Shown piece by piece: positions 27,056 to 62,893 of a DNA stretch of 64,000 bases (its first letter is position 1; every line of letters starts with the position of its first letter). Source of the DNA: Chitinophagales bacterium (lineage in GTDB: Bacteria; Bacteroidota; Bacteroidia; Chitinophagales; JADIYW01). The notes beneath the pieces were generated by a model. That model had not been told where the DNA came from. It was given only the letters and a program-made list of their open reading frames with translations, and did no database searches. The position numbers and the translations under genes were made by a program. The DNA lies in NCBI GenBank assembly GCA_019694955.1, contig JAIBAX010000003.1, positions 1 to 64,000 of the forward strand. The letters are read 5' to 3'.

Positions 27056-27072
27056 TTATTTTGCCAATAAGG

Positions 27073-27102
27073 TTGCAAGAATTGCTGAATCTAGTATATT
27101 TG
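27073..27102 (+). promoter_or_regulatory. Promoter of the retron RNA
   Basis: TTG (27073-27075), 19-base spacer, TATATTTG (27095-27102): an excellent match to the Bacteroidota TTTG/TTG-N17-23-TAnnTTTG promoter. It predicts a transcript start near 27108, exactly where the a1 arm of the retron RNA begins. Confidence 0.65.
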
Positions 27103-27107
27103 CATTT

Positions 27108-27315
27108 GACATTACCTTGCTTTTCTGAATAAGAAATGATGATGTTTCGTCATCGGTGTAAGATTGTAAATCATACTACACTACCTACTATCTTTATGGT
27201 GAGAATAGGTACTATACGTGCCTTTTCAGACCATTTTCCATGAAATTAAAGGCACGTATAGTACCTATTCTCTGGAGTTGATAGATGTAGTCCTAAGAAG
27301 ATACGAAGGCATGTC
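27108..27315 (+). ncRNA. Retron msr-msd non-coding RNA
   Basis: A structured RNA upstream of the reverse transcriptase. Terminal a1/a2 pairing: GACAT (27108-27112), CCTT (27115-27118) and TTTCT (27122-27126) pair with ATGTC (27311-27315), AAGG (27306-27309) and AGAAG (27296-27300). msr hairpin: GATGATG-TTT-CGTCATC (27138-27154). msd: a perfect 25-bp stem, 27201-27225 with 27248-27272, 22-base loop, extended below by CTATC/GATAG and ACTACA/TGTAGT with bulges. This layout (a1, msr hairpin, long msd stem, a2, RT gene) is the standard retron plan. The exact branching G and msr/msd boundary cannot be fixed by eye. Confidence 0.8.
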
Positions 27316-27317
27316 AC

Positions 27318-27352
27318 AAGGCTCTATGTTTAAAAAATATAGGGCCTTTTTT
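27318..27352 (+). terminator. Terminator hairpin between retron RNA and RT gene
   Basis: AAGGCTCTAT (27318-27327) pairs with ATAGGGCCTT (27339-27348; one G-U), followed by T-run 27347-27352. Lies 20 bases before the RT ATG. It could set a high RNA-to-protein ratio by partial termination. Confidence 0.7.
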
Positions 27353-27371
27353 AATTAAAAAAACAAATAAA

Positions 27372-62767: not shown

Positions 62768-62893
62768 CCAACCCTCGAGGTTGAAATCTTTCAACCTCGA
62801 GGGTTGGCAAATTACAACATATTGATTTTCAATATAAAAATACAAATTCTACTAAAATCAGCAGCGTTGCTTTCATTCAACCTCCGAGGTCGG
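62768..62893. repeat. Fourth palindromic repeat (variant of the 111-bp family)
   Basis: Begins with a long hairpin CCAACCCTCGAGGTTGAAA / TTTCAACCTCGAGGGTTGG (62768-62807). Then ATTGATTTTCAATATAAAA and AAAATCAGCAGCGTTGC, ending TTCAACCTCCGAGGT at 62893, one base from the LytTR stop. Confidence 0.75.

Follow-up and report, generated by a model that had tools for sequence, protein, structure and literature searches.

A probable msr-msd template RNA beside the type XIII retron genes of a Chitinophagales bacterium, and its tandem counterparts in relatives

We analysed a stretch of 64,000 nt from a Chitinophagales bacterium (hereafter the window) and find that positions 27108-27315 encode, with a probability of about 0.9, the msr-msd template RNA of a complete type XIII retron, made up of the ncRNA, a reverse transcriptase (RT), a WGR/HEAT protein and a SWIM protein. 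Very probably this RNA is copied into a small hairpin DNA by the bacterial RT. The element is a further member of a retron type that is already known as an antiviral system and has been little studied; the typing follows Mestre et al. 2020. The RNA, its fold and its pairing with type XIII genes are established by comparison, whereas we infer the priming site, the ends of the msDNA, the guarding of effectors and the trigger.

All three proteins match the type XIII models of PADLOC over nearly their whole length, and the gaps between RT and WGR (9 nt) and between WGR and SWIM (3 nt) place the genes in the same operon. This joint presence of WGR/HEAT-ARM and SWIM proteins in one operon is a mark of type XIII, and the RT falls in the XIII clade, with RT_XIII scoring far better than the next-best model, RT_other (4.6e-176 against 4.3e-92). 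The motifs YADD, NAxxH (here NAQQH) and VTG are conserved across an alignment of 25 RT sequences and assign the enzyme to the retron clade. The best 25 families among its PADLOC matches are all retron-type RT models, leaving it outside the DRT clade; among solved structures the Ec86 RT comes closest (E 5.7e-71), and DRT2 reaches only 4e-8. As in retrons generally, there is an adjoining ncRNA with an a1/a2 duplex, an msr hairpin and a long msd hairpin. Residues C517, C519, G530, P531, C532 and H534 of the SWIM protein are invariant. A profile search of the SWIM and WGR proteins against solved structures returned weak helical-repeat and winged-helix-like matches only, and a structure prediction for the SWIM protein, made from two sequences, was discarded (pLDDT 34). 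Genome G000 also holds a second retron-like RT (L003:1501-2421, corresponding to contig C86:36959-37879), which is closest to the PADLOC models RT-Protease_XI and RT-TIR_XII.

Table 1. Genes, RNA elements and signals of the type XIII retron locus, in window coordinates.
Feature	Position	Strand	Evidence
Predicted Bacteroidota-type promoter: GTTG (-33), 19-nt spacer, TATATTTG (-7, 27095-27102)	27072..27102	+	read from sequence
Outer a1, GACAU	27108..27112	+	pairs with AUGUC 27311-27315; fold
Inner a1, CCUU	27115..27118	+	pairs with AAGG 27306-27309; helix 1, 96.8% of cells paired in 95 copies
Predicted branching G (2'-OH primer)	27119	+	invariant in 33-sequence alignment (CUUGC); placed as in Eco1/Ec86
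Short local msr hairpin, UUUCU/AGAAA	27121..27136	+	folds of 7 relatives; rival to third a1/a2 block
msr hairpin, 7 bp, UUU loop in GUUUCG	27138..27154	+	helix 2, 98% of cells paired in 95 copies
Basal helix P2, 5' strand ACUAC	27180..27184	+	with 27287-27291; helix 3, 92% paired; 5/5 pairs with compensatory change
Basal helix P3, 5' strand CUAUC	27188..27192	+	with 27280-27284; helix 4, 90.3% paired; 5/5 pairs with compensatory change
msd stem, 5' arm, 25 bp	27201..27225	+	helix 6, 97% paired in 95 copies
msd apical loop, 22 nt; inner UUUC..GAAA hairpin possible	27226..27247	+	fold
msd stem, 3' arm	27248..27272	+	exact reverse complement of 5' arm
Conserved GGAGUUGA motif 3' of stem	27274..27281	+	alignment A1; G, G, U, G of motif invariant
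Predicted first template base C27304, with G27305, opposite branching G	27304..27305	+	invariant CGAAG; Eco1 analogy
a2: AAGG 27306-27309 and AUGUC 27311-27315	27306..27315	+	fold
Intrinsic terminator, 14-pair stem 27318-27348, then T run	27318..27353	+	shuffles give 0.3
Reverse transcriptase RT_XIII, 503 aa	27372..28883	+	PADLOC E 4.6e-176; conserved motifs; Ec86 RT kinship
WGR_XIII, WGR/HEAT-like effector partner, 1103 aa	28893..32204	+	PADLOC E 2.7e-304; Pfam WGR
SWIM_XIII, SWIM zinc-finger effector partner, 549 aa	32208..33857	+	PADLOC E 2.6e-230; CxC..GPCxH conserved

The preliminary description of this DNA had read the region as a retron RNA with a perfect 25-bp msd stem, two further pairings below it and a 7-bp msr hairpin, and each of these elements returns in the predicted fold (Table 1). 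The minimum free energy of 27108-27315 is -70.2 kcal/mol against -41.8 +/- 4.3 in dinucleotide shuffles (z -6.6), and none of 200 shuffles folds as well. Both arms of the msd stem are exact reverse complements, and their 25 bp exceed every other perfect inverted repeat in the window (18 bp for the runner-up, and 15 bp for the best of 20 shuffled windows). The second-longest repeat (62768-62807, with 18-bp arms and a 4-nt loop) is probably a terminator.

Of the three blocks of a1/a2 pairing that had been proposed, GACAU/AUGUC and CCUU/AAGG hold. Relatives build the outer duplex from other sequences, for instance GTTAAAT/ATTTAAC in L005, and in the L006 group it measures 14 bp. The third block (UUUUCU 27121-27126 with AGAAGA) is part of the minimum free energy structure but competes with a short local hairpin at 27121-27136. 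We prefer the local hairpin, since relatives keep it with different sequences (UUUUCUU/AAGAAAA, CCUG/CAGG and UUCC/GGAA) and since base pairs spanning the branch site would hinder priming. The predicted branch site itself is framed by the invariant bases CUUGC (27116-27120) and CGAAG (27304-27308) in the alignment of 33 sequences. Based on position, conservation and the anatomy of Eco1, we predict that G27119 is the branching G and that the template starts with C27304. The 3' end of the msDNA is expected in the region of the P3 5' strand (27188-27192); a predicted msDNA that spans 27304 to about 27183 forms the msd hairpin as well when folded (z -8.4).

To place the RNA among its relatives, we gathered RT_XIII genes from whole genomes and one named contig, of Chryseobacterium pennae, and found the same order of RNA elements in the sequences upstream. 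Alignment A1 of 33 such RNAs yields a consensus of 41 pairs, 33 of which have both sides changed and the pair kept in at least one sequence. Covariation over these RNAs amounts to 0.633, against 0.194 in shuffles and a maximum of 0.127 when the pairing is slid. A covariance model made from Bacteroidota RNAs only (R1) places the window RNA at 27110-27313 and has it as the single match in its own genome. When 95 copies are aligned to R1, 94.5% of the pair cells are kept, 38 of the 41 pairs show compensatory change and covariation rises to 0.785 (0.185 in shuffles), although this alignment leans to the model, a bias from which A1 is free. The preliminary description had staked its reading on the fold recurring in homologues; an RNA matching R1 is indeed present in 32 of the 34 genomes with an RT_XIII gene. 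The two genomes without a match to R1 (G875 and G292) perhaps lack it because of cut contigs or divergence. An independent test of R1 across phyla is given by Methylobacterium bullatum, whose alphaproteobacterial type XIII RT gene is accompanied by a match of 105 bits at the expected place, between SWIM and RT. Viral copies of the ncRNA were considered and rejected: 27 viral contigs that fitted a loose DNA pattern of the ncRNA tail are chance matches, since the covariance model recognised none of them, which also served to check its specificity, and none encoded homologues of RT, WGR or SWIM. A search for the window msd stem gave chance-level matches only in phages, and none in viral contigs.

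A promoter at 27073-27102 and a terminator after a2 had also been proposed from the sequence. The terminator stands (14 pairs and a T run, where shuffles give 0.3), and terminators of differing sequence lie at the matching place in L001, L004 and L005. For the promoter a scan for sigma-70 sites remains at chance level (3 sites against 2.3 expected), and judging from its motifs the region at 27072-27102 fits the Bacteroidota type better (GTTG-N19-TATATTTG). The end of TATATTTG sits 12 nt 5' of CCUUGC, and TAnnTTTG occurs within 60 nt upstream of 17 of the 95 ncRNA copies (against 3.7% of random windows). Both ends of the transcript are predictions. In the clade of the window the terminator lies between ncRNA and RT and leaves only some 20 nt up to the RT start; expression of the RT therefore probably depends on read-through and is lower than that of the ncRNA.

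Gene order varies around the RNA. The window has the order ncRNA-RT-WGR-SWIM in common with its closest relatives (L001, L103 and L104), most other relatives have WGR-SWIM-ncRNA(s)-RT, and a distant group shows ncRNA(s)-HEAT-SWIM-RT, with the ncRNA kilobases upstream of the RT. For one locus of the distant group (L100), whose genome is fragmented, RT and SWIM are found on a separate contig. The RNA thus stays with the type XIII system but is no fixed leader of the RT gene.

The window carries one ncRNA copy, whereas relatives often have 2-6 tandem copies before one RT (arrays at L038, L039, L040, L041, L042, L083-L102, L121 and L122; e.g. L092:9922-10722 and L083:10176-10729). In one family of the same order the RNA is found in 31 of 298 genomes, with at least two copies in 24; in 23 of these 24 the copies are in tandem on one contig, up to four in number. 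L100 has six copies in a row before a HEAT_XIII gene (the sixth being a weak match), and G900 holds two arrays of four. Within arrays the mean identity is 78% for the msr and 81% for the tail, but 54% for the stem arms (shuffled arms align at 44%). The contrast is clearest in L083, where msr, apical loop and tail are 97%, 100% and 98% identical and the arms 62%, and in L092, where msr and tail reach 97% and 94% and the arms fall as low as 50%; pairing is intact in both. In a tree of the non-stem parts 9 of 23 arrays form single clades and the rest share copies between genomes. The sister arrays L038 and L039 contain the same four stem types in the orders 1,2,3,4 and 1,2,4,3, which suggests that array units were reshuffled. 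The array genomes are mostly fragmented assemblies; the copies are nonetheless hard to explain as assembly errors, because divergent and structurally intact copies occur in many genomes.

In the stem arms of 79 copies TpA steps are in strong excess, numbering 230 where 125 would be expected (z 13, with related stems kept in the count), and so are words such as TACTA, GGTAC and GTACTA (the first two with one stem per cluster). The idea that msd stems serve as general palindromic methylation targets was rejected: clear enrichment is confined to palindromes that have TA at their centre (GTAC, CTAG, TATA) and follows mostly from the excess of TpA, and 6-mer palindromes show none. A separate promoter for each array copy was likewise dropped, the -7 motif being absent before most copies. 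Given that msr, branch site and tail are near constant, that the msd stems are hypervariable with full pairing and that one RT serves each array, it might tentatively be argued, at slightly worse than even odds, that an array-bearing retron makes a panel of msDNA baits that differ in sequence and respond to different phage enzymes, and that the window RNA is the single-copy form.

Three other explanations of the window RNA were weighed. As a cis-acting leader or attenuator its hairpins would only set the read-through into the RT-effector operon, and no DNA would be templated. This agrees with the RNA preceding the RT and with a terminator that ends 20 nt before the RT start, but in other lineages the RNA follows WGR-SWIM or lies kilobases upstream with HEAT and SWIM before the RT. 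Attenuation moreover has no need of invariant branch-site bases and a1/a2 pairing, and 2-6 tandem copies speak against it too, so that we regard a leader as very unlikely. The RNA could also be of the kind found with defence-associated RTs (DRTs), with protein-primed or untemplated synthesis instead of 2'-5' branched priming; according to PMC12483538 and PMC12039810, structured neighbouring RNAs are used by other antiviral RTs as well. Here the best families and nearest solved structures are nevertheless retron RTs (DRT2 at 1e-8 against 1e-71), the window RT carries NAxxH and VTG, and the elements of the RNA (a1/a2, msr hairpin, msd hairpin) follow one another as in retrons, which renders this option less probable still.

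Mobile elements and ordinary terminators can also yield long perfect inverted repeats, and the stem might be such a remnant or terminator, beside the RT by chance. Its own genome has no second copy, however, and the stem is embedded in a conserved structure of 200 nt whose covariation across genera and phyla already refutes this explanation, to which we attach hardly any weight. The template RNA of a type XIII retron remains our preferred reading.

In the mechanism that we propose, the a1/a2 duplex would bring G27119 beside the template start, and the RT, bound to the msr hairpin, would prime from the 2'-OH of this G. From C27304 the enzyme would copy leftwards, pass the stem and come to a halt close to the basal helices (about 27180-27192), giving an RNA-linked DNA of about 110-125 nt that holds the 25-bp hairpin. 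Together with RT and ncRNA the msDNA may keep the WGR and SWIM proteins inactive, as in guard-type retrons, until a phage damages or modifies the msDNA or the complex, which would free both proteins and stop the cell. Guarding, trigger and toxicity are put forward for type XIII as suppositions. For other retrons it is reported that phage adenine methyltransferases can be the trigger, through sites in the RT-DNA on which they act (PMC12548924).

The present work offers an RNA model, backed by covariation, for a retron type that is absent from Rfam and hardly mentioned in the literature searched, and the predicted branch G and template start make this model testable. Constant frames with swapped stems in the arrays suggest that retrons may diversify their DNA bait; if true, this bears on what retron msDNA recognises, and arrays that work as they look would provide several baits for one effector set. 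In the papers searched the type XIII retron was found only once, as a PADLOC annotation in Variovorax (PMC11953036). Neither the type XIII RNA nor its arrays were described in the literature searched, outside of which stand Mestre 2020 and Khan 2024, and priority is not claimed.

Among known systems, the locus resembles the type XIII retron as modelled in PADLOC (RT_XIII, WGR_XIII and SWIM_XIII) in all three proteins and in having the ncRNA in the operon. It differs from most type XIII relatives in placing the ncRNA first and in having one ncRNA where they often have several in tandem. The window RNA is the same kind of molecule in function as the msr RNA of Rfam (RF00170), but a search of Rfam 15 gave no match to this or any other retron family, even at E values up to 10. 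Eco1/Ec86 (type II-A) has the closest solved RT. The effector of Eco1 is a nucleoside deoxyribosyltransferase-like protein and differs from those of type XIII. Its branch site reads CCUUAGC / GACGUAAGG, with the layout CCUU-(A)GC / ACG-(U)AAGG. Presumably the window RNA shares with Eco1 this layout, the msr hairpin with its GUUUCG loop and the msd hairpin, whereas in sequence the type XIII RNAs are an alignable family of their own.
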